In this document: one piece after another, positions 7,801 to 60,339 of the stretch | How the letters are laid out: each line of letters opens with the position of its first letter | How positions within the stretch are numbered: position 1 is the stretch's first letter | Source of the DNA: Ilex aquifolium | Taxonomy: Eukaryota > Streptophyta > Magnoliopsida > Aquifoliales > Aquifoliaceae | Direction: 5' to 3' | NCBI GenBank assembly: GCA_951799425.1 | Contig: OX637391.1 | Span: forward strand, 50,749,069 to 50,813,068 | Length of the DNA stretch: 64,000 nt | Notes under the pieces: generated by a model | The model's database searches: none | Told to the model about the DNA's origin: nothing | What the model saw: the letters and a program-made list of their open reading frames with translations, nothing else | Made by a program: the position numbers and the translations under genes

Positions 7801-10330
7801 TTTTTAGTATATATGTTGGCATGTATCGCTCCCGTTTCGCATCTATCGCTCTCATCCATTCTCATTCATGTTTGAACATGTAGTTCCTAACTACCCGCAG
7901 TAAGTAAGTTAAATATAGCCAACCTAGTCATTCTCTTCCTTAGATCATGCATGAAACTTGGATGGAATTCTATGATCACATAATATTCAAGACAAACACC
8001 ATAGGAAAAATCCAAACTACCAGAATCCCTGTTCTACTTCACCAATTGAAGCGTCGAAATCAATTACACAGGTAATCACAAATAACTTTATTAAATTGCT
8101 TGGAACAAAGCATTTGAAATTGGAAGTTCATATAAGCAATAAACAGAAAGGATTAACTGCATGAGTTTCAAATTTATCTTCAATTCGTAGAGGACTCTAC
8201 AGAGAAGAAACAGTGTGGATGTGTTTAAGGATTTGGAATTTCTTACGTTATGGCTGAGAGTTTTATGTACTCCTACAAAAGAGATAAAGAATGGGAAGTT
8301 GTAGAAGAATTTCAAAGAAGGAAGTAAATGCCGATTGTCGAGTAATGAAGTGAAAGAGAGGTCAACAAAATAGCAACCTACGAATTATATAAGTATTGTA
8401 GTAAACTACTGATCAAAGCAAGTAAAAACTCCCCTAAAAAGATACAAATTTACACTGAATAAGACAGTGCTCTAAGTGGCACAAAAACCCTCGTCACAGA
8501 AGAAATGTTTTTATTTGTTGAGCAAAGTGCTATTGTTTCTGCCAATGAAGATGTTGATTGGGTCGGCTCACCGACAGACGGATAGGAGGTCTACGACTGG
8601 GCACATTTTTCTTTTGATTTTAGATGGAAATCTTGTGACGTGGATGAGTAAGAAGTAAAGAGTTGTCGCACGGTCGAATGCAAAAACAGAGTATAGAGCA
8701 ATGGCTTGTGAGCTTATTTGGCTGAAAACCTTACTAAGTGAGCTTGGAGTTGAGGTGTCTCATCCCATGAGAATATTCTTTGATAATCAAGCAACAACTC
8801 ACATTGTTTCCTCTTTATTCCCTTTCTAAATTGTTGTATAGTCAATCCCACTCTCAGTGAAAGATAAATAGAGGTCTAAAATGCTTCCTTTGTAATCAAC
8901 TCTTCCAAAATTCTTCCTTTAAAGCCCATAATATAAAATTAACCCAGTTTGGTCTCTATTGACCAAATATGCCAGGACTGATAAGCTAACTATATAACAA
9001 TTGATATTATTTGCACAAAGTTCTAATTTGTTACTATTTGAACCTACGATCTTGTGGTTGTTAGTCCATTTTACCATTGCACCAGATAAGACCTGTTACA
9101 TGCTTAATTTTTAATTATATAATATTAGAGGTAGTTATTAGGAAGTTATTAGTGAGTGGATTAGTGATAGAGTATTTGTGGGAAGTTTTCTAGGTGGTTT
9201 TCTAGGTAGTGGGTATGTTGGTTATGTATATAGTTATTTTCATTATGTATTTAAAGTTCTCATTCTTAATGAAATTGACATGTTAGATTTTGAGATAAGC
9301 TTTCTTGTGAAGTTTGGAGAAGCTCTTCTCGAATTGAACCACCTAAGGTTTTCAACTCCCCTCGGAGCGGGTTTTTCTTTTCCCAATTCTATTTTTTGTC
9401 TATTTTCTGAATTTATCAAAGTGTGCACGTAACAAGACCTCTCATCAAAACACACAATGATGCATACATCTTCCCTATGTTTAGGAATAAGAATGAGATG
9501 CAAAAACTAGATACAAAATACTCAATACTGGGAGCTGTACTATTATCATACAGTTTGAATATAACTAGTTCACCGTAATATCCTCGATTCCTTAGCTTTT
9601 CATCCTCTTTAAGTTTTGACCCATGAAAAATAATTAATATGACATCAAAGTTAAAATAATAGCCAATTATAGACACAATCATCTCATCAACATATATACT
9701 ATTGATTAGGCAAATGCTAGTCTTGGCCTGCCCTCTAGTGCCTCGCTTAACAAACAACAGACATTTTGGAATCTAATTTCGAATTCTTTCAATTTTTCAC
9801 ATGAATGCTTCTCTTTCCTAGAATAACGCTGATGATCCCAAGGGCATAAAGCGATTATCCCAGTATAGTGGACTTTGATAGAAGTTAATTACAACGATTA
9901 TAGGTTTCCAAGCATTTAACACCCAAGTGAACATGCAATGTACCTTCACGCGTAGGTTTTTGGGGTCATTTGCACCACCGTTCTCCGAATTAAGTCCACC
10001 CACCTGCCCCAAATTCCTATCTGCAAAAACCACCAAACACCCCAGCCAAATCAATCAAAATTAGCAACTACTCTCAAAAGGGTAACTGATTCAAAGCTTC
10101 ACATAAACAATTAAAACTAAATCAAACGCTACTGAGCCAACGGACTTCACCACGAACCAACCTTGGGCAGCTCAACATCAATTAAATCTTTTACAGCTCA
10201 AATACCAAAGAAATTGGGGAAGTAATAAAGATGACAACAGGTATTTAACAACAACTATTAGAAATTAGAAGACCCTAGCAAGAAATTGGATGTGGGTATT
10301 TTTACCTGGAAGAGAGGAAGAGCAACCCAT
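1815..10330 (-). CDS. RABF1: RABF1/ARA6-type plant Rab5 small GTPase, eight exons
   Basis: A plant-unique Rab5 GTPase that acts on endosomes and in endosome-to-plasma-membrane/vacuole traffic. Coding exons on the minus strand are 10306-10330, 9944-10020, 7163-7246, 6881-6975, 6527-6632, 2250-2339, 2048-2134 and 1815-1853. All introns are GT-AG and the reading phase closes exactly to 200 codons (family about 200). The start MGCSSSLP gives Gly2 for myristoylation and Cys3 for palmitoylation. The C-terminus KRLPRPSPS lacks the prenylated Cys pair of ordinary Rabs, the defining ARA6 trait. GTPase motifs are all present: P-loop GDSGVGKS (39-46), switch region TIGASF (64-69), WDTAGQER (87-94, with the catalytic Gln), NKAD (146-149) and ETSAK (174-178). 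Introns 2 (2.7 kb) and 5 (4.2 kb) are enlarged by transposons, both inserted in the plus orientation. I see no disabling change, so the gene is probably functional. Its regulation cannot be read beyond a CT-rich 5' leader. Confidence 0.96.
2953..3387 (+). repeat. 5' LTR of the intron-5 gypsy-type element
   Basis: About 435 bp. Aligns along its length with 5624-6038; shared blocks include TTGGTTGGAC, the TTATTATTATTTGATTTA segment, GTAATCCCCACTATTTTTAT and CTTGCGAG. It is longer than its partner partly because of a T-homopolymer near 3340. Confidence 0.85.
3390..3402 (+). other. Primer binding site (tRNA-iMet-like)
   Basis: TTAGTATCAGAGT lies 2 bp after the 5' LTR and resembles the usual TGGTATCAGAGC site complementary to the initiator-Met tRNA 3' end, with decay at the edges. 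Confidence 0.7.
3859..5600 (+). pseudogene. Decayed gag-protease region of the gypsy-type element
   Basis: The first part encodes a heptad-like N-terminal segment ([19 protein letters not shown]), which probably started at ATG where GTG now stands at 3859. A typical Ty3-gypsy gag core follows ([12 protein letters not shown], then [10 protein letters not shown], then [18 protein letters not shown], then [13 protein letters not shown]). It is broken by in-frame stops and by a secondary A-tract insertion at 4318-4418. A CCHC zinc knuckle, [14 protein letters not shown], lies around 4889-4931. The protease-like part at about 5120-5500 has [12 protein letters not shown] where a DSGA-type active site is expected, so the catalytic motif is damaged, followed by CHILLGRTW. 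The last codons stop at 5600, just before the purine tract. It is non-functional. Confidence 0.85.
4318..4418 (+). repeat. A-tract insertion flanked by a perfect 22-bp direct repeat
   Basis: A stretch of 57 bp, almost pure A with two interrupting T's plus one leading T (4340-4396), is bounded by two identical 22-bp copies at 4318-4339 and 4397-4418 (beginning ACTCACTTGG, ending TCATGGG). Removing one copy and the A-tract restores a continuous gag frame (RSW then DDMKTAL). This looks like target-primed retroposition that delivered only a poly(A) tail, with its target-site duplication. Slippage or an assembly artefact is the alternative. Confidence 0.75.
5611..5623 (+). other. Polypurine tract
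   Basis: AGCGGAGGAGAAT directly abuts the 3' LTR start TGATGG, as expected for plus-strand priming. Confidence 0.7.
5624..6038 (+). repeat. 3' LTR of the intron-5 gypsy-type element
   Basis: About 415 bp, partner of 2953-3387. It begins TGATGGCGCAACC and ends AAACATCA, then the imperfect target duplication TACCA. Confidence 0.85.
8551..8826 (+). pseudogene. Ty1-copia RNase H fragment in RABF1 intron 2
   Basis: Conceptual translation gives [10 protein letters not shown], then after a one-base frame change RRSTTGHIF...LVTWMSKK, then after a stop [26 protein letters not shown] and [12 protein letters not shown]. This is the copia RNase H signature (D-DWAG...RRSTSG...SKKQ...S-AE-EYRA...DN-A). 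A frameshift, a stop and missing ends show it is dead. The strand is opposite to RABF1. Confidence 0.88.
9030..9090 (-). repeat. tRNA-derived SINE-like head
   Basis: On the minus strand TGGTGCAATGGTAAAA resembles a pol III A box, and about 35 nt later TAGGTTCAAATAG resembles a B box. It sits beside the solo LTR insertion point. No 3' end or target duplication was identified. Confidence 0.35.
9094..9434 (+). mobile_element. Solo LTR with perfect 5-bp target duplication
   Basis: A 341-bp unit starting TGTTACATGC and ending GTGCACGTAACA, flanked by AGACC on both sides (9089-9093 and 9435-9439). It shares the termini and internal segments (TTTCTAGGTAGT, AAGCTTTCTTGTGAA, CCTCGGAGCGGGT-like) with the LTRs at 38279 and 39059, so it is the same family. 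No internal region or second LTR is present, which indicates LTR-LTR recombination. It lies in RABF1 intron 2. Confidence 0.88.
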
Positions 10331-36083: not shown

Positions 36084-36600
36084 GAGCAAATGGCAGTTTG
36101 CACTTCGAAAGATTAAAAAAAAAAAAATTAAATTACACCCTCAAAGATCAATTATTTTAAATTACACCCTCAATAAAATTAATTAGTAGCAATGTGGACC
36201 CTAGTCATAACGTTCGCTACGATTTCCGTTGGATTGACAAGCATGTGAGACTCACGTGGAAAGAGGAAGGGTCATAATCCAACAAAAGTCATCATGTGCA
36301 TCTCACGCGGCTGTCAATTTGACGGAAATGAATATTATAGCTGGGTTTCACATTGTTACTAATTAATTTCATTGAGGGTGCAATTTAGAAAAATTGTGCA
36401 AATTGAGAATTTTTTAACGAACAATGCTAAATGGACTTAAAAACTAGACTTGATAGTCTCAATCATTGAATAGGTAGTGGGTCCCAATAAATACTGGGAC
36501 CCAGAGTGAAATCAATAATTGTAATTATCAAGTCTACTTTTTAAATCCATGTAGCATTGCTCTTTTTTAATCTTTCGGGTGTGCAAACTGCTATTTGCCC
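36084..36600. mobile_element. Foldback/Mutator-like MITE with long inverted arms
   Basis: The left arm from GAGCAAATGGCAGTTTGCAC through the TTACACCCTCAATAAAATTA segment is the reverse complement of the right arm ending GTGCAAACTGCTATTTGCCC. The flanks TATTTGGTT (36075-36083) and TGTTTGGTT (36601-36609) are a 9-bp duplication with one mismatch, the length typical of Mutator-like elements. The right arm is split by a smaller MITE. Confidence 0.78.
36419..36562. mobile_element. Small hairpin MITE nested in the foldback element
   Basis: Its left half, GAACAATGCTAAATGGACTT through ACTTGATA, and the reverse complement of its right half, GAGCAATGCTACATGGATTT, form arms of about 65 bp around GGGTCCC. 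It is flanked by TTTTTTAAC on the left and TTTTTTAAT on the right, a target duplication of 8-9 bp. Its removal restores the outer arm. Confidence 0.8.
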
Positions 36601-36878
36601 TGTTTGGTTTTTATACAAATCGAGCTTAAAAGTCGGCTCAAATGTATTGGTTTTGTAAAGATCACTAACACATAAGGATTTTCCTTGTTAAAAGTAGTTT
36701 TGTTAGTGGTAGACAGACATGATCTATCAAGTTTTGGAAGTTGTTAAAAAGTAGTTATTAAATTCTAACATCACATGAAACCAAAACCTTTTGGTATCCA
36801 TTCTAATGCGTTCACACTCTATAACATATTATCTATTGCAAATCCAACGTTTCACCAACTGAAAAAAAAACTGCTAGT
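36601..36878. other. Intergenic, no gene seen
   Basis: Unremarkable AT-rich sequence between the foldback element and the tandem duplication. Confidence 0.4.
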
Positions 36879-38124
36879 AATCTCTCTCTCTCTCTCTGTG
36901 AGTGTGTGTGTGTGTGTGAACGTACCAATATTAATACAAAGTGAATTGATTAAGTTATAACAGCCTTCTGATTTCTGAACAAACTCAAGCTGCTCGTAAC
37001 GACTACAAAAGAAGAAAAGTGACTTCCACATATGACAATGTTTGACATAACAAAATTAGTTGAGGAAGTACATGAAAGAATGGATACAGAATCCCTATAA
37101 TACATCTATATTTTGTTTTTTTTGTTGATGGCTGAGTATCCACGGTGTATTAGTGACGATCCAATTATATATAGTGAATCTTATTGAAATTCACGACCTA
37201 CCATTAAGAGAAATTATATATATATATATATATAAAATATTCGTGGGAATCAGAATCTAATCAAAACTTATAATTTGATTGATGAATGTGTCTATGTCGA
37301 CAATGGATTATATCTTGGTTCGCAAATGGTCATTGTTTATGTGAATAATTGTAGCCATTTGAATTAGCACAGTTATAGTTGAACTTGTCATTTAACCCTT
37401 GATTTAGCGTAGTAGTGTCGGAACGACATCTGAGAACTCTTTGTCGCTTTGCTATGAGAAAAGAGTTGTAGAAGATCTTTTCTTGGTACCAAATAGTTTT
37501 TAATTTAAATATTTTCTTTATTACGAGCTTGGGGGTTTGGGGGTGGGGAAGGGGGGACTCTTATTGGAGGGAGCAGCTAGATGCTAATGGGATAGAGGAG
37601 AAAGAAGAGACCTAAAATCTAATACAAACTATTCTGTCTTGAACTACTGGATGATGTAACGTACCTAAGATAATAAGACATAAAAAAAGAGTCAAGTAAC
37701 TAGGTGCAATACAAGAGGACGCTAGGACAACGAACCATAGGATGTCAAAGAAGCGTCTGAGTTCTAAGCATGTGAAGATTCAAAGGGACCCCACATCAAT
37801 AAGACTAAAACAAAACGTAAGACATTTTGATACTTTTTTAAGGGGAGACCCTTTGTAATGAAATGAAGGTTTGGTGTTTAGTCCGCTATAGAAGTTGGAG
37901 AATAAAAGACAATAATATTTAAATTTTAGGGTCGAAAACCAATATAGTATTTAAGACCCCCTCCACATAGACAAGAACCTATCAACCTACTATGAGAAGC
38001 ATAATAATTTTCATAATATTATCTAAAAAATTACAAATACATCATTTTCCCTCGATTTTTTTGACCAAAACAAAAATGATGATGTGTTGAAATTGATTGG
38101 TTAAGTCCACCCATTGAAGGACCC
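36879..38124 (+). repeat. 1.25 kb tandem duplication, unit 1 (intact)
   Basis: Begins with a CT run at 36881 and GTGAACGTACCAATATTAAT, and ends at ATTGAAGGACCC. The same sequence begins again at 38125. Shared blocks include CAAACTCAAGCTGCTCGTAA, CATAACAAAATTAGTTGAG, TTATATCTTGGTTC and ATTGATTGGTTAAGTCCACC. It has no coding content. Confidence 0.9.
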
Positions 38125-39531
38125 AAATCTCTCTCTCTCTCTCTCACTGTGAACGTATCAATATTAATACAAACAAAGTGAATTGATTAAGTTGTACCAG
38201 TTGTTTGATTTTTGAACAAACTCAAGCTGCTCGTAACGACTTTATAGAAGAAAAGTGTCTTCCATATGACAAGGTTTATGTTACATGCTTTTAATTTTAT
38301 ATTTATCTGAATATTATGTAAGCTAATTTGTGGGATTTATTTGGGGAATGGGTTAGTAGTATTGTATTAATAAGTTTCGTAGGTAGTTATCTAGGTAGTG
38401 GAATCATGGGGTTTAGTAGTTATCTTGAGCTTACCATTAATGGAAAAGGTAACAAACATTTGTGGTAAGCTTTCTTGTGAAAGGTTTGGGACGCCAGGTT
38501 CCCTTAAATGAACCACTGGAAGTTTCAACCCTCCTCGAAACGGGTCTCTCTTTCCCCTATTTCTATTTCTTTTTATTTTCGAAATTATGCACGTAACAAT
38601 TAGTATTAGAGCTGACGATCCTATTAATGGCTAACTTATCAAAGATTTTGAAGTTGTTGCGTGACGATTTTCAAAAGACGTTCGAAGATTGATCGAAGAA
38701 AATTAACGCATGCAAGAAGGCTTCAACAACCTCACAAAAATCATTCAAGAAGAAAATTTGCATGCCAACATACTTCATTGGCCGTGTAGAAAAATACATT
38801 GCGAGAATAAGAAGGGGTCATCATTTGGTGACGAGGCAACACGCAAACTGATGGGTGACATTGTAGCAATTGAAGACAAAGTTTTGATGATTTGAAGATT
38901 AATGTTACAATTCAGATGAAGACAAATTATTTCACGCTTATTAAATGTGAAAATAGGGATCAAATTGACTGTTATGAAGACATGGAAGTGGGTTGGTCTC
39001 CTCCTTATTTTACATGATCAATAAAACTTTCGGGACAGTTTTTTTAAGGGGGAAGGATTGTTACGTGCTTTTTATTTTATATTTATCTGAATATTATGTA
39101 AGCTAATTTCTAAGAGTTTATGTAAAGAATGGGTTAGTAGTATTATTAATAAGTTTCCTAGGTAGTTATCTAGATAGTGGGGTCATGGGGTTTAGTAGTT
39201 ATCTTGTAGTTGTTATCTCATTGTATTTAAAGAGCTTACGGTTAATGGAAAAGATAACAAATATTTGTGATAAACTTTCTTGTGAAAAACTTGGGAGGTT
39301 AGGTTCCCCTCAAAGGTTGTGTTTGGATAGTGGGTTAAAGGTGGTTATCCACTAGTTGGATGGGATAAAATAGGAGTGAGACCCATATAACCTTTGTATG
39401 GAAAGCCATTTTTGAGATTGGCTATAAATCCCGGGTCAACGCTTGACCTGGTTGCTATAGTACCGTTTAACCCTCATAGGCCAGTATCATATAACCCAGC
39501 CCCCCGGGTTACAAACCCAGGCAATGGGTTA

Positions 39532-39555
39532 CCCCCCCCCCCCCCCCCCCCCCCC
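39532..39555 (+). repeat. C homopolymer (24 nt)
   Basis: An uninterrupted run of C near the left end of the Harbinger element. A similar run is at 62870-62892. Its length may be unreliable. Confidence 0.95.
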
Positions 39556-40708
39556 ATAGACATATTTGCCCTTCTCTCTTTCTCCACCCATTCAGTGATG
39601 AATCCCTCTCTCTTTCTCCTGTCAGCTAAGCTCGTCCAAGGGTTCACACAGAGGCGAAGACGATTGTGGCATTGGGGAGGTCCTCCAATTTTCTACATCT
39701 GTGGGTGAGAGCTTCTTCATAGAGTCGACGAAGAAGACGACATCGCTAGACAGAATGAAGAACATAGCTTCTTCTTGAGGTAAGTTTCTCATCGCTCTCT
39801 CTATCTCTATTATGTCTCTCTCTTTCTCTATCTCCCTGGACATAACGAAGAACACATACCGAAGACCAGATCTGTTTTCGTTCACCCTCTGTTCGACGAA
39901 CATGTCTGGATCTGAGTTTGACGAACAGATTTAAATCTTTATTGATCTAGATCTTAACAGATCTGCAACGAACAGAGGATGATAGGAATAGATTTGCTAG
40001 TACCCATTTCACATTTGGTAGAGGCTTAGGAACAGATGTTTCATTCTTGAACTGGGTACCCAACAAAACATTTTAGTATTATACCATTAAATTTTATGGG
40101 TTGAAATATAAATTTTAAAGTTTGTCTACACCATAAAAGGAAATTTATGGATGGGATCACATTATAACTTTTATTATGGTTCAATTAACTATTGTGATGA
40201 GATATGTGTGTGCATTTTCTTTTCGGTTCTGCTGGTTTGTGTTTGTCTTCAAGATATCTTTGTGGATAGTGGCCGAAAGAAGTTTGCATTGGCAGTTTTA
40301 GCCCTTAATGAATAAAGTTCTAGTTTTGTGCAATGCGTATTTGCCCCTAAATCTTAATTTGTGAGTATTCTTGATCCTAAATCTTAATTTGTGCGTATTT
40401 GCCCCTAAATCTTAATTTGTGAGTATTCTTGCTATTATGTTACGCACTAAATTGCTCGGTATGGTGTATTGTGTAGTTGCGTGCTCTGAATTTTATGCTG
40501 CAATGTTTGCTGCTGATTATGGGTGATCTAACATGGTGAATGAGTGTTCACTGCCCCTGCTATGTCTTCAAATTTAAATGCTTGATCATTGCATTATGCT
40601 AGGCATTGATGGTTTCTTTTGCTTAGCTTCAATTGTGTTACATGAATACTATATTTAATATTGACGTGACTATTGTACAAAAAATTGCAAGGGCGTTTAG
40701 CAGATAAA

Positions 40709-42091
40709 ATGCCAAACCGTATTGATGACATTGCTGGATTGATTGTTGTGTTGGATAGGACGAGAAGAGAGATGATAGTAATGTTCTATTTGTTTGTGGT
40801 CCTTATAGTTGTGTTGTGGGAAATGGAGAGACAATCAAAACCACAACCATCAAGTCAATTGTCTAGAAATCGATTGCAATTTGAACACTTGCACCGTCTA
40901 ATTGGTGATAGTGACATTAATTGCATAGAACAACTGAGGATGGATAGACACACTTTTCGCGTTCTTTGTAATTTGGTGGAACAAGTAGGTGACTTAAATC
41001 GCACGAGATATGTAAGCGTTGAAGAAATGGTGGCTATGTTCCTAAATATATTGGGTCATGATGTGAAGAATAGGCCAATAAAGTTCAACTTTCTTAGATC
41101 AGGCGAAATTGTAAGCAAACATTTCAATGTTGTGTTGAAGTCAGTTATTAAGTTGCATCGTTTACTATTAACGAGACCCAATCCAATAACTGATGACTCT
41201 ACAGATAACAAGTGGCGGTGGTTTAAGGTAACGAAACCTTACAATTGTTTCATATGTCATTGGATAGAATTTGGATGAATGGTAACAAAATATAATTTGT
41301 TTCATTATTTTTGATTTGTAGAATTGCGTAGGAGCACTAGATGGCATACACGTTAGAGCAAGGATACCAATGGTTCACCAACCAAGATATAGGAATAGAC
41401 ATGGTGACATTTCAACAAATGTCCTTGGTGTGTGCTCCCAATATATGAAATTCATTTATGTCTTGCCTGGTTGGAAAGGGTCGGTTGCTGATTCTAGGAT
41501 ACTACGAGATGCAGTAACGAGGAGGAATGACTTTAAAGTGGCTCGGGGTAAGTTATGAAAGACCACTAGTATTATTTTCTTTAACAATTAGTAGGAGTGT
41601 TCTTACAAAACCACAATTTCTACGCAGGCACCTACTACCTTGTGGATGCCGGTTACACAAATGGGGAAGGGTTCTTAGCTCCATTTAGGGGCCAAAGATA
41701 CCATGTGCAACAGTGGGCCAAAGGGGTAGCTGCACCTCGTAATGCTGAGGAACTCTTCAACCTTAGACATTCAATGGCTAGGAATGTTATAGAACGTTGT
41801 TTTGCCTTACTCAAAAATCGATGGGCAATCCTAAGGACTCCTTGCCACTACCCAGTACGCACACACAATCGAATCATTGCTGCATGCTGCTTGTTGCATA
41901 ATTTGATTAGAAATGAAATGACTTTGGACTCAGTGGAAGATGAGTTGCCAGAAGATGGTCAGGCCGATGACCATGGTGATATAGAGCCGGATGTCATCGA
42001 CATGGTGGACACATCTAATGAATGTACTGTATTTAGAAACCAACTAGCCAACAATATGTACAATGAATGGTGTGAGAGTAGGGGTGGCTAA
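40709..42091 (+). CDS. PIF/Harbinger transposase (HARBI1-like nuclease), three exons
   Basis: A DDE-superfamily transposase that would cut and rejoin the element ends. Exons 40709-41227, 41322-41547 and 41628-42091 have GT-AG borders and total 1209 bp (402 residues) with no internal stop. The N-terminal helical region includes LRMDRHTFRVLCNL and YVSVEEMVAMFLNIL. The nuclease part has ALDGIHVRA (Asp180), YVLPGWKGSVADSRIL (Asp230), YYLVDAGYTNGEGFLAPFRG (Asp255) and RNVIERCFALLKNRW (Glu304). The first Asp, one of the two later Asps, and Glu304 make a plausible catalytic triad. It ends SRGG-stop. The start is the first ATG in frame; a later Met is possible. It lies 170 bp upstream of the Myb-like gene in the same direction, the usual two-gene Harbinger layout. 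It appears intact. Confidence 0.88.
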
Positions 42092-42261
42092 ATGTTTTAC
42101 CACTTTTCTAATAACGGACCAATTAAGTTGTGTGTATTTAATTTGGGAGAATTTATGTGAACTATTTGTGTTTTCTTATGATTGCTTTACCCAAGTCATA
42201 TATTATTTGTGTGTTTGTCGGTTATTTAATGGTATTTGGCATGTACGTATGTAAGTAGGTC

Positions 42262-43348
42262 ATGTCAAATGTTGATGCCAGCAGTCAAGTAGAGTGTGGT
42301 CCACGCCGAACATGGACAGTCGCAAAGGAGGCTTTTCTGATGCATGCATTGAAAGAACTACGTGTGAACGGATGGAAGTGTCAGAATGACACATTTCGCC
42401 CGGGTTATCTTCAAACATTGGAGAACAATTTATAGGAAGCATTCCCAACAACTAACCTTAGGGCGTCACCACATATTGAGTCGAAAATCAAAGCATGGAA
42501 AAAGCAGTACAACTTTTTGTTTTCAATGCTAAGCGCATCTGATTTTGGATGGAATGATCGCGACAAGAAAGTGGATGTGTTTGGTGAAGATATCTGGGTG
42601 GAGTACTTGAAGGTTTTACTACTCGCTTGCATCCATTAATAATAATAAACCAAGATAACTTGTATATATTATGCCCTATTAATTTTTCTATTGACAATGT
42701 AGAAAGACAAGAATGTGAAGGGGATGCGTGGTAGATCATGGCTATTGTATGATGATTGGGTCCTTATCTTTGGGAAAGATAGGGCAATGGGTGAGTTTGC
42801 TCAAGGACTAGAGGAAATGATTGAAGATAATTCAGCTGCTGAGGATGTCCCTGAGGAGGCCAATGTAGAGGCTCATCCAACTGGGGGAACAGATGATGTT
42901 AGCCACTCTTAAAGTGTAATTCAGGGCAGGGAGGGTGTGAATGTCACCCCCACAGACATGTAAGACAAAAAAAAAAAAATCTATTGATCTAAGCGATTCA
43001 ATGGCTACAAGTCTTTCCAAGATATGTAAGGTATTTGGTGATTACGTTGTTTCAAGCGAGAACCAACTAGCAAGCATTGCACAAAGAGTAGGTTACGAGC
43101 AAAATGCATCTACAAGTAGACGTGCCATCCTAGCAGAGTTGTCAAAAATAGATGGCCTTACAATGGCACACCGCCACGATGCAGCATACAAAATTACTTC
43201 AGATAACATAAAAGTTGACATTTTCTTTAGCTTGCCAGTGGAAGAGCGAGTACTCTGGGTTGGTAGCATATTGTGGCCTGATTTAGATGTTTATCAAGGT
43301 CGTATGTATAGTTACTCGTGCCCTGCTTGTGAACTAAATTTTGGTTGA
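42262..43348 (+). pseudogene. Broken Myb/SANT-like accessory gene of the Harbinger element
   Basis: Encodes the Myb/SANT-like (Myb_DNA-bind_3) protein that partners PIF/Harbinger transposases by binding element ends. From ATG 42262 it reads RRTWTVAKEAFLMHALKEL, then GWKCQNDTFRPGYLQTLE, then after a TAG stop (42433-42435) SPHIESKIKAWKKQYN. An intron 42613-42702 (GT-AG) leads to KDKNVKGMRGRSWLLYDDW and IFGKDRAMGEFAQ. Further stops occur at about 42910 and 42960, next to an A-run. The C-terminal part RRAILAELSKIDGLT and FFSLPVEERVLWV is recognisable to 43348. At least three disruptions make it a pseudogene unless unusual splicing removes them. Confidence 0.85.
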
Positions 43349-43491
43349 CCCATGTGTCACATTTAATTTAGCAACTTATGTATGATGTGGATGTTTGACT
43401 TATTAATTAGATGTTTTGCTTTAATGTTTTGCTCGTATGTTGTTCACTTATTATGTTTTCCTACGTATGTATGGTTATGGATGATGACTTG

Positions 43492-43493
<2 letters not shown>

Positions 43494-43555
<62 letters not shown>
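43494..43555 (+). repeat. (AT)n microsatellite, about 60 bp
   Basis: Nearly pure AT repeat just downstream of the Myb-like pseudogene. Confidence 0.95.
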
Positions 43556-43558
<3 letters not shown>

Positions 43559-43581
43559 AATTGTTGTGGTATTAGTACACA

Positions 43582-43722
43582 ATGAAGCTACCCGACATGA
43601 CTGAGGATGAAGTTGATGTCATGCTTGACTTATTAGTTGACTTTAAGAATCGCGAGAAATTACCTATAGCAGGCAGGTATTCAGAAAGACTGCTTGATGC
43701 ACTGTTTACACGTATACGATAA
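43582..43722 (+). CDS. Unidentified 46-codon exon-like frame
   Basis: Reads MKLPDMTEDEVDVMLDLLVD then KLPIAGRYSERLLDALFTRI then stop. The composition is acidic and helical and looks protein-like compared with the AT-rich surroundings, but I recognise no family. It could be a remnant of a gene inside the Harbinger element. Confidence 0.3.
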   Translation: MKLPDMTEDEVDVMLDLLVDFKNREKLPIAGRYSERLLDALFTRIR

Positions 43723-46700
43723 AGGATGCCTAGGTTTCATCTGTCTATGAGTGATATGTTGAGGGCAATCCTTTTCTTGGAGCGTCAATATAATAGCACT
43801 AGTAATAACCTGTGCCTAAAGACACTTTGTAACTTAAAAAAAATTATTCAATTTGAAATAGTTTTTTTGGCAAAATTTATTCTAAAATTAGGAGCTAAAA
43901 AAAATCTCAACCTATCTACAAAGTATATATATCTCATTGTATGTATTATTACCCGACACAAACCATTGCATTGCCCAACACAAACCATTGCATTGCCCAA
44001 TACAAATCATTGCATAACCATCTCAGAATAAATTACTCAACCTAACTCAAATGCATCATTATATTGTAGTCACTAAAAAAACCTTCCCAATTAATTCATA
44101 CATTCATACTGGAAAAAAAAAGAAGTAAAGAAACAAATCTAAACTAATCTATAACCTCTTCAATAAAATATAATATTGTCCAGAAATCAAATCAAACCAA
44201 ACCACCCAAGAAGATTACAAACTTGCAGCACCAATCCGTAAAAAATGGTCCACCAAACCCAATATTCCATATCAAATAGAATTTTAAAAAGTCCAAGAAT
44301 AACAACATATTTTACAATCATCAATAGAAAAATAATACAACCAATAATATAAATTCAAAAAAGAATGTATAATGTATAGGGCATTCGAGAAACTCATGGA
44401 CAATTTTCGTGAGATGAATCGCAATTTACGTTGCTGTAAGGCTTCACCTACGCCAACCAAAATCGAAACTCCACCGCACTTTCACAATATAACACCACCC
44501 TACAAAATTAATATGATTTCAAATATAAAATCAAGTAATTATTCACATGAATCATCACAATAGGATTCAATAACTAAAAAAAACCTTTTCAACAAACAGG
44601 GGTTAAAGTAATGACTAAAATATATTGCGCCTAAAAACTGGTACCTATTATGGTATCTCATCTTCTTACTAAACTTTAAAATATAATTGAAACTTAAGTA
44701 ATACAAAACTTTTAAAAAAGTTAAAGAGAGCAAGGGTAACAAAAACCCATATAAACCTGTTAACTTTCTCTAACAACGCAACTAACTCACAATGTTATTA
44801 GAACCTTAAAATTGAAACCTCTACACAAAAAAACCTCAATTTAAAAACCCTAGTTTATTCAAATACAAATAGACAAAAAAGGATAACAAAAAAACTTTGC
44901 AAGTGCTATGATCCCTTTTGAACACAATCATTTACCAACTATCACATCAAATTTTCTTTTGGTCACCATCAATTTCAATTCACTAACGAAAATGAGCAAA
45001 TGGAAGTATGTGCGATGGGAGTGTGAGTGTGAATTGTTGTTGGTGTGTACTATGTGATGTTTTTTGTATTATGTGTGCATGTGATTGTGAATGTGTATTG
45101 AAGGCTGAGAAAAGAGGGACCTGGACTGTGTTCGGTCACTTGTCCATGGCGTCAATTGAACAACATTTGATACATCTATTGCACTATCCAAAACAATTTA
45201 AACCCAAATGAATAAGTATGAAATGTCAATCCTATAAACCCAATAGAGGCCATATGATTAATGGACATTATATACCGGGATAAAGAGTAGCATTATAGTG
45301 AGGGAAATTATCCCGTTCAAAAAAGACATAATACCATATTCAAAACACACACATACACAAAGCACTCGACTTACCCTACATAGGAAAAAAATGGAATGTT
45401 TGTCTCGTGCCGCAATTCAGGTTCTGCAAAATTTAGTGAGCGCAAAATAATAAACAAAAGAAATACTAAAATTATGCAATTAAAGCCTCATAAGCCATCA
45501 GTACACAACAACAATATAATTTCCAAAAACTAAGTGTGTGTGTGTGCCATTTTTGCACGTGTGTGTGCTCTACGTTCCTCTATGTGTGTTGTGTTGTATA
45601 CTGTGGACTCTGTGTGTGTGTGTGTGTGTGATTGTGTGTATTGAAGACAAAGAGATCAATATAGAGAGAAAAACAGGGACCTAACCTGTGTTTGGTCGCT
45701 TGTCCATGGCGTCATACTTTTTCTTTGTCATAATGCAAATTAAGTTTCAAGATCAACTACTGTTAGAACAACTAATAAGCAAAAAATTATTATAAATTCT
45801 TAGTCAATCAAATTCCATTCAACCAACCACTCTGAATATCAAAAAATCAAAAGAGTCCAAACTAAGAACATTAAATCATCTAACTAATCAAAAAATAAAA
45901 AATAAATACAAAACCATGAATCAAACCTAGATTAATACCTTACATTTGAACATCAAAACAAATCTGGGAGACAAATCATATGTTCATAAATGTACACATA
46001 AATTGGATTTTCTAGGAACAAAAAAAAAAGATAGGTTTGTCTTATTCGCAAAACTCATATTAAATTAACCAAACCTTAAGTAATAATTAAATTAGAATTA
46101 CCCAGCTTGCATATACACATAATACTTATACACACCTACAATAAAAGACACAAAACTACTCCTTTACAAAATTAATCATCAGGAAACATATAACTCAAAT
46201 TGACTCAATCAATAAATCATAAATATTTGTTAAATCCACGGATTCATTCTATTGTAAAAATGCCAAAATCGGATACATATAAATGTATAAGGTCTCCAAT
46301 ATTTCGCCCCTTTATCCTATACTTAAATTGATCCAAGTAGACCCACATTAATCAACTTTAAAACCAATACATGGCATAAGATTTAAATAATCAAGTAGAA
46401 CCACATTAACAAACTACAAAACCAATACATGACATATGATTTAAATAACCTAAAACTTATTAAAGTCTCAAATTTCACTATTTTCAAGAAAATCCACATT
46501 AATCTACTTCAAAATCAATCGGTTGACGGTAAAAATCAATATGTATAGATAACACTTGATCAAATATTTGATTTCAATTTCATTAACAAACTCTAACTAA
46601 GCACAACATGAAAATTGAAAATTTCTAGTGTTTTAAAAATTACCTAGCTATTCTCAAAAGGAAAAAAAAAAAAGCCTACCGACATGAGAGTTGAGTGGAC

Positions 46701-47025
46701 ACGATTGCCACTTGAATTCAACCACAACAAAAATTTCCTCCCAATTAGCATTAAATCAAGAGAAAAGCACAATTGTTGTTAACCATATAGAGAGAAGAGA
46801 AAAAATTTAATTTCCAAAATAGTTTAATAGCATAACCGAAAATTGTGTGTGAAAAACAGGATTTGGGGAGGGTATTGTCATTGTGCGTAGCAAGATGAGT
46901 GTGAAAAACATAGTGTGTCTGTGTGTGCGTGTGTGTGTTGTGTCTGTGAGTGGATGTATGTTGTGTCTGTGTGTGAGTTAGTATGAAGACAGAGAGAGGA
47001 GGAATGCGACTGTGCATGTGTTACT

Positions 47026-47074
<49 letters not shown>

Positions 47075-47616
47075 GGGAGAGAGATTACCTGGATCCATTG
47101 CAGAGAAGAGGGGTTGATCTATGGTGGGTGAATCCATGACATAGAGAGAAAAAGGAGAACTAAGATCGATGGTGGGTCGCTGGTCATCGATGATGGCTTG
47201 TTGCATCACCGTTAGTGGCTTCATCGACAGGAGAGAGGCAAGAGTCATGAGACAGAGAGAGGGAGATGTTGGTTGATAGCCGGTGGTTGAACCAGCGTAG
47301 GGGAGCGAGAGGTCCGAATTCTTCTAAGAGAGAGAGAGAAAGAGGAAATAGAGAGAGCATCTAATGAGTTGGGTTTGGGTAATGTGTAGGAGTTGGGTAG
47401 TGTGTAGGAGTGTTCTATTATGGGCGGGATTTTGGTTTTGGGTGGGATGTATTGTGAACCTTTGGATTAAATTAAAAGAATTGAAATGAAATCTTGACCA
47501 TTGAGTTAAACTTAAATTAAATCTGAGACGTTCTTGTACTTTCTCAATTGAATTAGAAATGGAATAAATTTTAAAATTAAAATGAATTCAAAATGCGCTC
47601 TATCTTATTATTATAG

Positions 47617-47647
<31 letters not shown>

Positions 47648-47828
47648 TGAGATGAGATAGTGTGTGTTTAAAACCTCTAAGAGATAGGAGAGAGAGAGAG
47701 TTATATGAGAGATATAGTGTTATACTTAAGTCCAATTATGATCGTCAGATCAAATGCCTGAAAATAATCTAAGCCGCGAAAAGTTAAAGACAAAGAAATC
47801 TGGCTATTTTATTATATAGATTGTTGAG
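43723..47828. other. Harbinger interior, repeats, no supported gene
   Basis: Contains a short tandem repeat near 43952-44020 (CAAACCATTGCATTGCCCAA type). GT-rich stretches followed by AGGGACCT and CTTGTCCATGGCGTCA occur at about 45003-45160 and 45535-45715, and a weaker relative at 46880-47170, suggesting an internally duplicated unit. A GA run lies at 47030-47070 and GA/TA runs near 47615-47700. Short frames lack domains. It may include an unrecognised nested insertion. Confidence 0.45.
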
Positions 47829-48211
47829 ATGTTAAACAGTGACATGTTTGTTTGGGACACACAGACTACGTGTGTTGTTGAAGGCCCAACACCTGGTGGT
47901 TTGGATTTCATTCAAGTAAGTGATTTCAATTAATTTGTTTCACGTTCGTATAGATACAAAGAAATTTATTAGTCATACATGTTGGTAATTTTATGGTTCT
48001 GTATTTTCACTCGACACATTTATTACAGGATGATGGCTTTGCCTGTAACTATTGTTTGGATCTTTGTCCAAATTTTACATTGTTGGAAATTATTTTCAAG
48101 AACGATGTACCAACCTCAAGCCAACAACACATTGATAGCAGTGTTGGATCATGCCCATCAGTAAATTCGAGGAGGAAGGAACTGGATGTCATAGTTATTG
48201 ATGATGATTAA
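47829..48211 (+). CDS. Unidentified two-exon frame ending in a SUMO-interaction-like motif
   Basis: Exon 47829-47915 (MLNSDMFVWDTQTT then VEGPTPGGLDFIQ) and exon 48029-48211 (DDGFACNYCLDLCPN then SVNSRRKELDVIVIDDD, stop) join through GTAAGT and TTACAG sites in one phase. The product would be 89 residues. I recognise no family. The end VIVIDDD fits the SUMO-interacting motif pattern (hydrophobic V/I core followed by acidic residues). It lies inside the Harbinger element, in the transposase direction, so it could be captured host exons or a third element gene. Expression is unknown, and upstream exons may be missing. Confidence 0.4.
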
Positions 48212-48451
48212 CCTCGTCCTTTGTAATGTAACAAAAATTTCGAATCTTTCTCGGGGTGTATTTACGTTCACTCTGATTAGGCTAGTTGAATGTTGCCGCA
48301 TTTTGTTATGTATTATATAAGGCAACATTAATTTCACTTGTTATTGTTAACAAATATTCACCACGGTGCCTTATGTTTTGTTGTATTTTTGTATAAAGCA
48401 ACATTTATTACAATTACGTATGTTTAATACGTAACTATTATGTTTTTCTAT

Positions 48452-49077
48452 GGGGATTGTACCAATATGGCTGCTAAATTTAGAGCGCTAATGGATGGGC
48501 TTAAAATGGTGGAGTAGTATGGTTTGATGGATTTACAAGATACTGATTGAGTGAGACTCTTTGGTACTTGTTAATTCAGTGTTCGGAGGTTGTGAATGCG
48601 CCTGGCCATATAAGTCATATTTGGAGTAAATTAAAAGGTTTGTGTTAATAGGAGGTTTTGTAATCAAGCATGTGTATAGAAAAATGAATTATGTGGCTCT
48701 TAGATTGGCTAATCAGGCTATACAAATAGGTTTTTCGGAGGACTTTACTATTTCTCTTAATTTGCCCTCTGTGGTTAAGCTTGAGTTATTGCAAAATTTG
48801 AGGGGATTGCCTATACTTAGGACTACGAGAATGGTGGTTTTTTATGACAAGGGGTGAGGTGTTTCTCGGCAACCTGAGTTTTTTGTGGTGGACTGGCATT
48901 AGCAGAGTTGATGCATTGGTTTTTTTTTTTTCCAGTCAAGTGTTGGAGACAACTTTTATATTTTCATTGTTTTGGTTGCTTTATCATATTGTTTTAAGGC
49001 ATGGTTGTTTGCCTTTCTCCCATTGTAATCAATTTTTAAGAAATGAAATAAAGTGTTGATTTGTTTGAAAAAAAAAA
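48452..49077 (+). pseudogene. L1-type LINE 3' fragment (RNase H plus poly(A))
   Basis: Reads TNMAAKFRALMDGLKMVE, then KHVYRKMNYVALRLANQAI, with frame changes between them. This matches the RVT_3 RNase H of plant L1 elements (N-AE--AL--GL ... H--RE-N--AD-LAN-A). It is followed by a 3' UTR-like stretch with AATAAAG and a run of about ten A's at the end. It is 5'-truncated and decayed. Confidence 0.8.
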
Positions 49078-50650
49078 TATTAACTTTCCTAAAAAAAACA
49101 TTTATTTTATTTTTATATATTTTTATGTATATGTGGAAAATGTATAATTTTATTAGGATAATCCACCGATTCAAACATAGGATATGATTGGTTTGGATTG
49201 GAATGGATAGAGTCATGGGTAGAATAGTAAACTACTACAAAATTATTTGTGTAACTTATAAGACCCACTGAATTACACATTTGTTTCCCAAACAAAGGTT
49301 ATGATTGGATATATTCCAAGGTTAGAGTTTTAAAGTGGATGAGTGAGTTTAGCTTGGATGGATTAGGATATAAAAAAAGAAATCCTACCTTATCCAATCC
49401 CGTTACCCAAACACACCAAAAGTGAATCACCGGAGGTTTCGATCCTCCTTGAAATTGGTATCTCTTTCCTCTAATTATATTTTTCTTTTATTTTCTAAAT
49501 ATCTCGAAATCGTAATTTAACATAACAAAATTAGTTGAGAAAGTACATGAAACAATGGACACATAATCCCTATAATACATCTCTATTTTTGTTTTTTGTT
49601 GATGGCAGAGTATCCACAGTGTATTAGTGGCGATCCAATTACATACAGTGGATCTTATTGAAATTCACGATCTACCATTAAGAGAAATTATAAAAAAAAA
49701 ATATTGGTGGGCATCAGAATTAAATCAAAATTTATAATTTGATCGATGATCGTATGTGTTGACGATGGATTATATCTTGGTTCATAAATGGTCAATGTCC
49801 ATGTGAATAATTGTAGTCATTTGAATTAGCGCAGTTATAGTTGAGCTTGTCATTTAACCTTGATTTAGCGTAGTAGTGCCGGCACGACATATGAAAACTC
49901 TTTGTCGCTTTGCTATGAGAAAAGAGTCGTAGAAGATATTTTCTTGGTACCAAATAGTTTCTAATTTAAATATTTTCTTTATTACCAGCTTGGGTGTGCC
50001 CCCCAAATCAAACAATATGAGTGGGGGGTTTGGGGGTGGGTGGGGACTCTTATTGGAGAGAGCAATTGGATGCTAATGGGATAGAGGAGAAAGAAGAGAG
50101 TGAAAGAAGAGAGCTACAATTTAATACAAACTATTCTGTCTTGAGGTACTGGATGATGTAACGTACTTACGATAATAAGACATCAAAAAAGAGTCAAGTA
50201 ACTAAGTGCAATACAAGAGGACGGTAGGATAACGAACCATAAAATATCAGAGAAACGTCTGAGATATAAGCATGTGAAGATTCAAAGGGACCCCACATCA
50301 ATAAGACTAAAACAAAACGCAAGACTTGAAGAATGATTTGACATTTGATTTTAATACTTTTTTTAGGGGAGACCCTTTGTTGTAATGAAGATTTGGTGTT
50401 CAGTCAGTCCGCTATAGAAGTTGGAGGATAGAAGACAACGATATTTAAATTTTAGGGTCGAACATCAATATAATATTAAGGCCCCCTCCACACATACAAG
50501 AACCTATCAACCTACTATTAGAAGCATAATAATTTTCTTAATAATATCCAAAAAATTACAAATACATCATTTTCCCTCAATTGTTTTTGACCAAAATAAC
50601 AATGATGATGTGTTGAAATTGATTGGTTAAGTCCACCAATTGAATGACCC

Positions 50651-53600
50651 AATTCCAAGAACTCCTAGAGGACCAAGTAAAGCCCAATCAATATGGCCAT
50701 ACTTGACCCAAGAAAGGAACAAAGTGCCACACAAACTTGGAGGAAAGGGAAGTCCAAAGATTCATATATTAATCCACCAATGCATTGTCACTTGCACATG
50801 AGATTAATTAAAGATGTTAATCAGGGATTATTTGAATAATAAAGTGTTAAACAGCCCACAGTATTCCCCAAAACAACATTAAGAAGTGGAATCGGGTTTA
50901 GTCCTCAATTTCAAGAACGGTTTGGTTTGATTAACCCAATGAAATGAAGGAGATTACTTTTTGGTTAAGATGCTTAATTAACTTTCTTAAGTTGTATTAG
51001 ATTGTGTAGTTCATTCATGTCGCGACAGATTGTCAATGACCGTCAAACCAACTACTATCACCTACTCAAATCATGGCCAATACCATAACGTATAATTTTT
51101 GTTGAGCCAGTTAATAGCCGACAAGTAATCAATAATCACGTGAACTGATTATTGCTATCCACATTGGCATTTGCATTAATTTACCTTGATATTGCTCGCT
51201 ATTAATTTCTAAATGACATGTTGAATGCCAAGAAATATAAAGAAAAAATCCACTATCGATCATCTAGTCAGATCACGGCCGACAACATAACGAGTAATCT
51301 TTGGTGGGCTTAGATCATAGCTAACAAATAATCGATTAATCACTCGAACTAATAACATGGACCTCCACCTTGGCATGTGCATTGATGATTCACCTTGGTA
51401 GTTTTACCATTTGCTAAAATGATGTTAAATGAGAAGAATCATAATGAAAAAGGTATTCATTGTTGAATACACAGCAAAGATTTTTCTTATGGAAAGAGAG
51501 AGATCTATGGACGCAACCTTGCCTGGCTGCAGAATCTACGCCAAGTCTTTTTCTTGTGGTGTGGTAGTGTCTGTCTTATCACATAGCTTTTTATTCAACT
51601 TTAATATGTATATTCTGTTATTTTTCTAGAAAATGACTACGGTATCGTCAATTATAACTTTTTCAAGGTATAAGTTACAATTTTAAAATGTATGATCGAT
51701 CACCGAAAATTCATGACCGATCATCGGTGTCTGTGATCGATCATAATCTTTCCTTGATCAATTGTAAATTATAATTTTATCATAAAAAATATTAATCAAC
51801 AATATGATAGTGAAAGCATCAAAGCATGTTCTCTTTAACTACCCAACTCTGAAAGCATCTGCTGACGAGAAAGAAGCCATAAATTTAGAGACAATTAATA
51901 ACATGCAACATGTTCTTTTAACATCCCTGCTAAAAATGTTAGCCAAGAAGCATTAAAAAAAGAAAAAGAAAAAGAAAAGTTAAAGGCACCTAAATGTTCA
52001 TGAAAAAAGGAAAAGGTTGATAAAACACAAGTGGTACTAGGTTGTTGGCCAAGACTAGGGCATAAGGCCCCACTTTCGATAGATATTTTATGCTATATAT
52101 ATGTGCTACTGGACCCCATTACTATTATTTTAACCTGCATTAATCCAAACCCATTACTATTATGTTAATAATCTTTTGATTTGAGGGTTTAAATTACAAC
52201 TAAATAAATCATTATTGATCATAAAAAATTATAATCGATCATAAAAAATATAATTTTTAAAAGTTATGTTATATCTTTTTAAAAGTGGAGTTACAATTGA
52301 TTGAGATTATTCATGATCAATCAATCACAATGAATATTGTGATTTGTTTTTTTTTAGCTTGTGAAAAAGGGAGAAGGACAACTAGTAGATAGTAACTCTA
52401 TCTAGGTGTGACCATGAGAGTCTCCCACTGTAGAATATCCGGTTTGAATCATAGCTATTAACCCGGAATGACTGCACATCACCACAACACCACCAAAACC
52501 AAACAACAAACCGCATTGGTCTTGTGAATCAAACTCTGCTTGATAATCATATGGGAATCAATGAAGACTTTAAACGGGTACAACTTACCACTAGACCACC
52601 AGTTCGGGTGGTAATGAAATATTGTGATCGATCATAAATAATTGTAACTTATCTTTTGTAAAATTTAACTTTATTTTTAATAATTATATTTTTTTAGTAT
52701 GATACTAAATAATTATTTTTTTATTTGATACTGTAGTTTTTTCCAAAGCTAAATAGCTAACCTTGAAGTTAATATAGATAAAAAGATAGCTATTGTGTGG
52801 TGTAAGGGCCTCCACTCCATGGACTGCTTAAACAGGTTTACCAGTGTCGTATATACTGATAAGTGATTAAACCCTCTTCTATTTCTCAAATCATTTCTGC
52901 ACCCTTGATGTGGTTTCTTAGTGGCTCACTGACTTTTTCTCTTACACCTTTTATCATTCAAATGATACGACAAAATTATGTTGTTTCAAGTTGAATATCA
53001 ACCGAGTCACCTCGTATAATTTTTTGAGTAATGCTATACAACCTAAATAAAATTCAAAAAAAATTTATATAAAAATTGAGTTATTTGTATTTTATACTTA
53101 CTCGATTCATTTGTAATTCATGTCAGTTGGTTATGTTATTTTCGGGTTCTTTTTATCTTCTGTTAAAAATTGTGTTTCCGGGGGCATTGGATTTGAATTA
53201 GGCTGTAGATCACTGATCACAACCTGTAGTACATCCTCTAATCCCTGTCATTTCATCCCTCATTTTACATGCATGTTGTCACCCTCATGAAAGCTTAAAA
53301 AGATTTGGACCACCTAGCAAAGTGGTTGAAGACATAAATTGCTAGGACTATGACGAGGACAATGGACGTGTGTGTCCCTTTTGAATAGTAAATATTCACT
53401 GAAATGGTTACACCACGTGAACTTTGCCACGTGAGGTAGTCATATATTACATGAATATGTAATTATTAAATTTTGTGGGGCTCACTTGTCTGCTTGTTCA
53501 GTTATTAGTAGGCAATTGCACAATTACACCACATGATATTACTAACGTGATGTAACCGTACACTCAATATTTTCTCGACTTAAAACAAGAGAAATTAATG

Positions 53601-60040: not shown

Positions 60041-60160
60041 AGTCGTTGTTTGCAGGTGCAGCGTCATCAAGATTCACATGCAAATGCCCCGGCGGTGTAG
60101 GGTTTCCGCCCAAGTTTGATGGTGAGAATCTTGATGATGCTGCATCAGCAGTCGATGACT
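60041..60160 (+). ncRNA. MIR172: MIR172 precursor, copy 1
   Basis: A microRNA precursor whose product represses AP2/TOE-type transcription factors, promoting the adult phase and flowering. The mature strand, 21 nt at 60125-60145 on the 3' arm, begins AGAATCTTGATGATGC and matches canonical miR172 throughout. The star strand at 60058-60078 on the 5' arm begins GCAGCGTCATC and ends ATTCACA. The two pair with 2-nt 3' overhangs at both ends; there is one G-U pair and an unpaired first base of the mature strand. The stem continues downwards (AGTCGTTGTTTGCAGG with CATCAGCAGTCGATGACT) for about 16 more pairs, which fits DCL1 processing. The loop side holds GGCGG/CCGCC. Almost certainly a true MIR172 hairpin; expression is not shown. 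Confidence 0.95.
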
Positions 60161-60222: not shown

Positions 60223-60339
60223 AGTCGTCCCTTGCAGGTGCAGCTTCATCAAGATTCACATGCAAATTCCCGATGGTGTGGTGTCCCGCGGAGTTTGGGG
60301 GTGAGAATCTTGATGATGCTGCATCAGCAATCGATGACT
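60223..60339 (+). ncRNA. MIR172: MIR172 precursor, copy 2
   Basis: A second hairpin 62 bp after the first. The mature strand at 60304-60324 is identical over all 21 nt to copy 1. The star strand at 60240-60260 begins GCAGCTTCATC, so a U-U mismatch replaces the G-U pair of copy 1. The lower stem AGTCGTCCCTTGCAGG with CATCAGCAATCGATGACT is conserved, while the loop has diverged. The flanks of the two copies also resemble each other, which shows a local duplication of about 180 bp. The two probably share one primary transcript. Confidence 0.95.

Follow-up and report, generated by a model that had tools for sequence, protein, structure and literature searches.

A tandem duplication holding nested LTR, PIF/Harbinger and Helitron insertions in Ilex aquifolium

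Layout of the locus

We analysed a 64,000-nucleotide stretch of AT-rich plant DNA (hereafter the window; C1:50749069-50813068) in the assembly of the Ilex aquifolium genome (800 Mb, 103 contigs), which was also the genome searched. The window holds a segment duplicated in tandem, a small LTR element in the second unit, a PIF/Harbinger transposon in the 3' LTR of that element and, within the transposon, an L1-type LINE fragment and a Helitron (Table 1). In the genome DNA searches, the best 40 of 429 to 1413 candidates were scored. Elsewhere in the window lie two MIR172 precursors in tandem (60046-60155 and 60228-60334; Rfam 82.6 and 74.9 bits), both with AGAATCTTGATGATGCTGCAT, and immediately upstream of unit 1 stand two neighbouring long imperfect palindromes (36149-36396 and 36416-36565).

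Table 1. Features of the duplicated segment and of the elements within it (window coordinates)
Feature	Position	Strand	Basis
Tandem unit 1, uninterrupted; empty site of the LTR element	36879-38125 (end approximate)	+	self-comparison, genome search
Unit 2, left part	38126-38278	+	self-comparison
5' LTR, TGTTAC...GTAACA	38279-38598	+	end set by relatives L021, L024
LTR element internal region, without long ORF; degraded primer site after 5' LTR, purine tract before 3' LTR	38599-39058	+	
3' LTR, left piece; last letters AAA = left Harbinger target repeat	39059-39314	+	
PIF/Harbinger transposon; 10.1 kb present, 6.1 kb minus Helitron; terminal inverted repeats GGTTGTGTTTGG / CCAAACACACC	39315-49418	+	
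Transposase gene, three exons, apparently intact, DDE_Tnp_4	40823-42091	+	start codon, splice sites by eye
orf1, Myb/SANT-like (PF12776), in-frame stop	42259-42912	+	
Second SANT-like exon, left half	43576-43798	+	
Non-autonomous Helitron, 4,022 bp; 5' TC at 47820, 3' CTAG at 43799-43802; between A and T	43799-47820	-	
Second SANT-like gene: right half of split exon, then stop-free stretch	47821-48211	+	
5'-truncated L1-type LINE fragment, RNase H remnant and A tail; predates Harbinger arrival	48447-49074 (approximate)	+	
3' LTR, right piece; first letters AAA = right Harbinger target repeat	49419-49515	+	
Unit 2, right part; first letters TTTA = right target repeat of the LTR element	49516-50655	+	self-comparison

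BLASTN comparison of the window with itself pairs 37041-38129 with 49516-50655 (84%, E 0.0) and 36915-37043 with 38148-38277 (E 2e-34), and recovers the LTR pair as well. It thus confirms the 1.25 kb tandem duplication claimed in an earlier sequence-only reading, with unit 2 directly after unit 1 and a CT run at the start of both. Unit 2 breaks off at 38278 and is resumed at 49516, and the interruption (38279-49515), absent from unit 1, begins and ends with the small LTR element that had been proposed to split it. When the genome was searched with 36600-38129, 25 of 25 candidates were scored; among the 28 rows, the only long matches were the two units, and no other piece exceeded about 150 bp.

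Both LTRs of this element begin with TGTTAC and the 5' LTR ends in GTAACA; the last bases of the 3' LTR seem to have been lost. The pieces of the pair, aligned one by one and unjoined, match at 38279-38505 with 39059-39312 and at 38506-38585 with 49420-49500. The element is flanked by GTTTA at its left end and by TTTA at its right; unit 1 has a single GTTTG at this place. Four places related to the element were retrieved for comparison. Two of them (L021 and L024) have ATTGGTATCAGAGC after the LTR, a sequence that we take to be an initiator-Met tRNA primer site, clear in both and degraded in the window copy; in L024, a purine tract precedes the second LTR. Paired LTRs, primer site, purine tract and target duplication, the marks of a non-autonomous LTR retrotransposon, are all found. 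A search for tRNA genes returned none, and a tree of 25 LTR rows left the window's two LTRs unplaced. At 9094-9435 lies a possible lone LTR, a diverged LTR relative that ends in CACGTAACA and shares about 67% identity with the 5' LTR.

That the 3' LTR is split by a Harbinger transposon, as had been proposed, is borne out by related LTRs in which the matches to its two pieces adjoin (-33 to +26 bp): this holds for 24 of 27 LTR rows, two of the 27 repeating another locus, and among the remaining three, two have no right partner and one has a partner 592 bp off. Boundaries could therefore be read against uninterrupted copies, as anticipated, with unit 1 and these rows as references. In the own-genome searches, family copies start at the equivalent of 39308-39322 in at least 34 of 53 rows, with four LTR rows ending at 39315, and stop at 49412-49428 in at least 29 of 57; as the best 40 candidates were scored out of 561 in one search and 535 in the other, these counts are lower bounds. 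The limits first given for the transposon, 39315-49417, were right, 18 of the 57 rows stopping exactly at 49417, and comparison with relatives suggests that 49418 is its mutated last base. At the edges of both Harbinger and Helitron, other family copies end within a few bases of the boundary seen in the window copy.

The terminal inverted repeats are identical at 14 of 17 aligned positions, a score reached by 6 of 1972 random pairs, and agree with the 14-25 bp and G(N)5GTT by which PIF/Harbinger ends were recognized. The motif is present at the left end of the window copy and, at the right end, only in relatives, because the last base here is altered. The target repeat is AAA on both sides, inside an A-run; its length of 3 bp fits, whereas its letters differ from the published TTA/TAA. 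Among relatives, the left flank ends variously in taa, tta, aaa or other letters.

Genes and inner elements of the Harbinger transposon

The transposase covers the full PF13359 (DDE_Tnp_4) profile (E 1.3e-27), and its best relative, among the best 120 of 1266, is a plant HARBI1/ALP1-like protein at 59% identity; a PDB sequence search with it gave 0 matches. With its in-frame stop entered as X, orf1 scores 34.4 bits against PF12776 (cut-off 23.6). The halves of the split exon do not match this profile singly and reach 18.9 bits (E 0.0031; cut-off 23.6) when joined. Two environmental proteins (P0121 and P0122) match the joined exon over its full length, ungapped, at 81-82%; they carry no precomputed Pfam domain and score 15.8 and 17.1 bits against PF12776. 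Because these relatives too fall below the Pfam cut-off, we use the label 'SANT-like' for the second gene tentatively.

Five Harbinger relatives (L050-L054; on C17, C14, C12 and two on C3) are 99.83-100% identical over 3,498 bp and their right-end flanks (L085-L089) are all different, which points to very recent transposition. These recently mobile-looking copies are of possible interest for workers on this host. We tentatively propose, with more doubt than confidence, a three-gene Harbinger lineage (transposase, Myb/SANT orf1 and a diverged second SANT-like gene) that has been mobile very recently and whose second gene was broken by the Helitron in the window copy.

The Helitron makes up about 40% of the stretch first called Harbinger and splits its SANT-like exon. 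It had been overlooked in the sequence-only reading, where the L1 fragment stood as the innermost of four levels; that place belongs to the Helitron. A 5' TC, a 3' CTRR and a hairpin 8-12 nt from the 3' end, the features by which Helitron ends were judged, are all present, the hairpin (GTGTC-TTTA-GGCAC; 14 nt, 5-bp stem) standing 9 nt before CTAG, and the element sits between an A at 43798 and a T at 47821 without target duplication. Its left edge is common to other Helitron copies in 13 of 47 rows and is reached from the other side by Harbinger copies in 25; at the right edge the figures are 30 of 61 rows, 26 of them at the same base, and 7 of 61, with one further row extending 15 bp beyond. 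Both edges occur together in four genome places, 3.5-4.1 kb apart.

All 15 Harbinger loci that reach the Helitron site read straight across it (13 places; 19 loci examined). Genome-wide pattern scans allowing up to 3 mismatches matched the empty site at 19 places and the filled site at one, that in the window, with 0 matches for the controls; no second copy carrying the Helitron in this position turned up. We call the element non-autonomous because its longest stop-free frame is at most 102 aa and the few interior pieces scanned for a RepHel protein gave no domain match. Within it, 45027-45154 and 45584-45714 form a diverged direct repeat (about 70%), and elsewhere in the genome 5' ends of the family lie side by side in tandem-like fashion (C8:8717155 and 8717384; C2:50338272 and 50338008).

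The other inner element shows an RNase H remnant and a poly-A tail (the A-run at about 49067-49076), a combination that we take to mark an L1-type LINE. Against the RNase H profile (cut-off 21.6), its relatives L043 and L044 score 23.1 and 21.1 bits and the window copy 13.2; the identification depends on the match of L043, and the L1 assignment of the window's own copy is weak. No RT domain was found in the fragment, and a protein search with it found nothing. At least part of the L1 sequence is present in 15 of 20 distinct Harbinger places, two of which (L041 and L042) hold the entire fragment, continuous, at 92-94% identity, and it is missing from the other five (L080-L084). As the sequence is common to Harbinger copies at other loci, the L1 fragment is older than the Harbinger insertion here. 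This settles a point that the sequence-only reading had left open: Harbinger does hold a degraded L1 fragment, though not as a late inner level. The comparison of copies indicates that the fragment joined the Harbinger lineage first and reached the window as a passenger.

Of the five relatives without L1, four carry some 120-130 bp of different sequence at the L1 site and the fifth a shorter version, so that the L1 replaced target sequence; no L1 target site duplication was recognized. The 10-bp repeat AACATTTATT (48400 and 49097) was considered for this role and rejected, since repeats of equal length occur in 48 of 2839 random window pairs and L1-free Harbinger copies set the right edge at 49075. 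Among L043-L047 and L049-L054, some copies have 40-70 bp replacing 164 bp at 48744-48907 of the L1 fragment, and others are longer by about 1.1 kb at 48502.

Order and age of the insertions

We consider it likely that the locus is a stack of independent, ordinary insertions. A 1.25 kb segment would have been duplicated in tandem, probably, to judge from the junction, by slippage or unequal exchange at the CT microsatellite. Next, reverse transcription and integration would have placed a small non-autonomous LTR retrotransposon in unit 2, giving a target repeat of some 5 bp, and a PIF/Harbinger element already carrying the truncated L1 fragment would have been pasted into its 3' LTR with the 3-bp repeat AAA. 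Last, the Helitron would have inserted between A and T within the SANT-like exon; non-autonomous Helitrons move by rolling-circle transposition with proteins from elsewhere. The element classes and the nesting of Harbinger in the LTR element, and of this in the duplication, are as the sequence-only reading had them. Counting against the stack are an LTR divergence above that of the units under one clock, an AAA target in an A-run, the weak L1 match of the window copy, a short Helitron hairpin and the scoring of only 40 candidates in the genome DNA searches.

The units differ at 104 of 1186 aligned sites (K2P 0.094; bootstrap 0.077-0.113) and the LTRs at 47 of 320 (K2P 0.166; 0.113-0.229), the LTRs being the more diverged pair (Fisher P 0.003). 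The excess lies mainly in the right LTR piece (21/95 differences, versus 26/225 in the left; P 0.024); counted by themselves, transversions show no difference between LTRs and units (P 0.33). DNA methylation was considered as a source of the extra LTR changes and finds no support, as the transition/transversion ratio does not differ (P 0.37). No gene conversion tract was seen between the units, whose mismatches are even at 5-15 per 100 columns, though some conversion may have taken place. Taken at face value, dating points opposite to a duplication that came first, and the earlier statement that the order is fixed is too strong for the duplication preceding the LTR element. Divergence does not confirm this first step, which we infer solely from the structure, with unit 1 uninterrupted.

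An LTR divergence above that of the units would be expected if the LTR element had inserted before the duplication, on one haplotype, and this filled haplotype had then exchanged unequally with an empty one, leaving one unit of each kind. The insertion must then still have been polymorphic, which allows only a small excess of age, and no difference from the units is seen in the left LTR piece by itself (P 0.21); we regard this course as unlikely. For the upper layers, the nearest Harbinger copies with more than 300 sites are at K2P 0.034 to 0.074, varying with the part compared, and identity to the nearest Helitron copies is 94-95%, values that fit younger arrivals but are not strict age bounds because a relative may descend from the window copy.

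The Helitron may already have been inside the donor Harbinger and have arrived with it, a course compatible with everything at the locus. The single filled junction against 19 empty sites (up to 3 mismatches) makes such a joint arrival rather improbable, and we infer that the Helitron came after, rather than just before, the Harbinger insertion. Repeats are where assemblies fail, and unrelated repeats could have been misjoined; the breaks, unlike those of a random join, coincide with biological ends (an inverted repeat and its 3-bp repeat, TC and CTAG between A and T, TGTTAC with target repeat), so that an artefact is very improbable indeed. Successive insertion into a tandem duplication remains our preferred reading, a real and readable stacking of a kind that is ordinary in plants. 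It offers a worked example of reading insertion order, in which the deepest-nested piece, here the L1 fragment, may be older than the elements around it, an age visible only through copies elsewhere in the genome.

Relation to known systems

LTR elements in plants are often clustered as layers of nested insertions, according to the excerpt of PMC4717578, which also sets the total length of TRIMs at under 1,000 bp. The LTR element resembles TRIMs as they appear in that excerpt in its short LTRs, non-coding interior and family of small copies; at about 1.13 kb without Harbinger it exceeds the stated limit, as do the members seen of its small family. The Harbinger transposon is close to MtPH-A6 of Medicago truncatula, as portrayed in part of PMC2213677: both have a two-intron DDE_Tnp_4 transposase with a Myb/SANT orf1 after it on the same strand, termini of the form GG...GTTTGG and a 3-bp target repeat. 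The copy here differs in its second SANT-like gene, resident L1 fragment and Helitron, and in a target repeat of AAA, not TTA/TAA. Helitrons have a 5' TC, a 3' CTAG, a hairpin near the 3' end and an A/T target in the extract of PMC2702305. The element here shares with the non-autonomous plant Helitrons of that extract the termini, a hairpin 9 nt from the end, an unduplicated A/T target and several kilobases without an intact protein, whereas its hairpin is shorter than the 16-20 nt given there as typical.

The order of insertion at this locus was deduced from interruption. In this it is like REANNOTATE, which reportedly dates nested transposon blocks through interruption, and a survey of nested LTR elements that is said to have taken insertion order from the same evidence; it differs in having a tandem duplication as outermost host, with the empty site supplied by that host itself.
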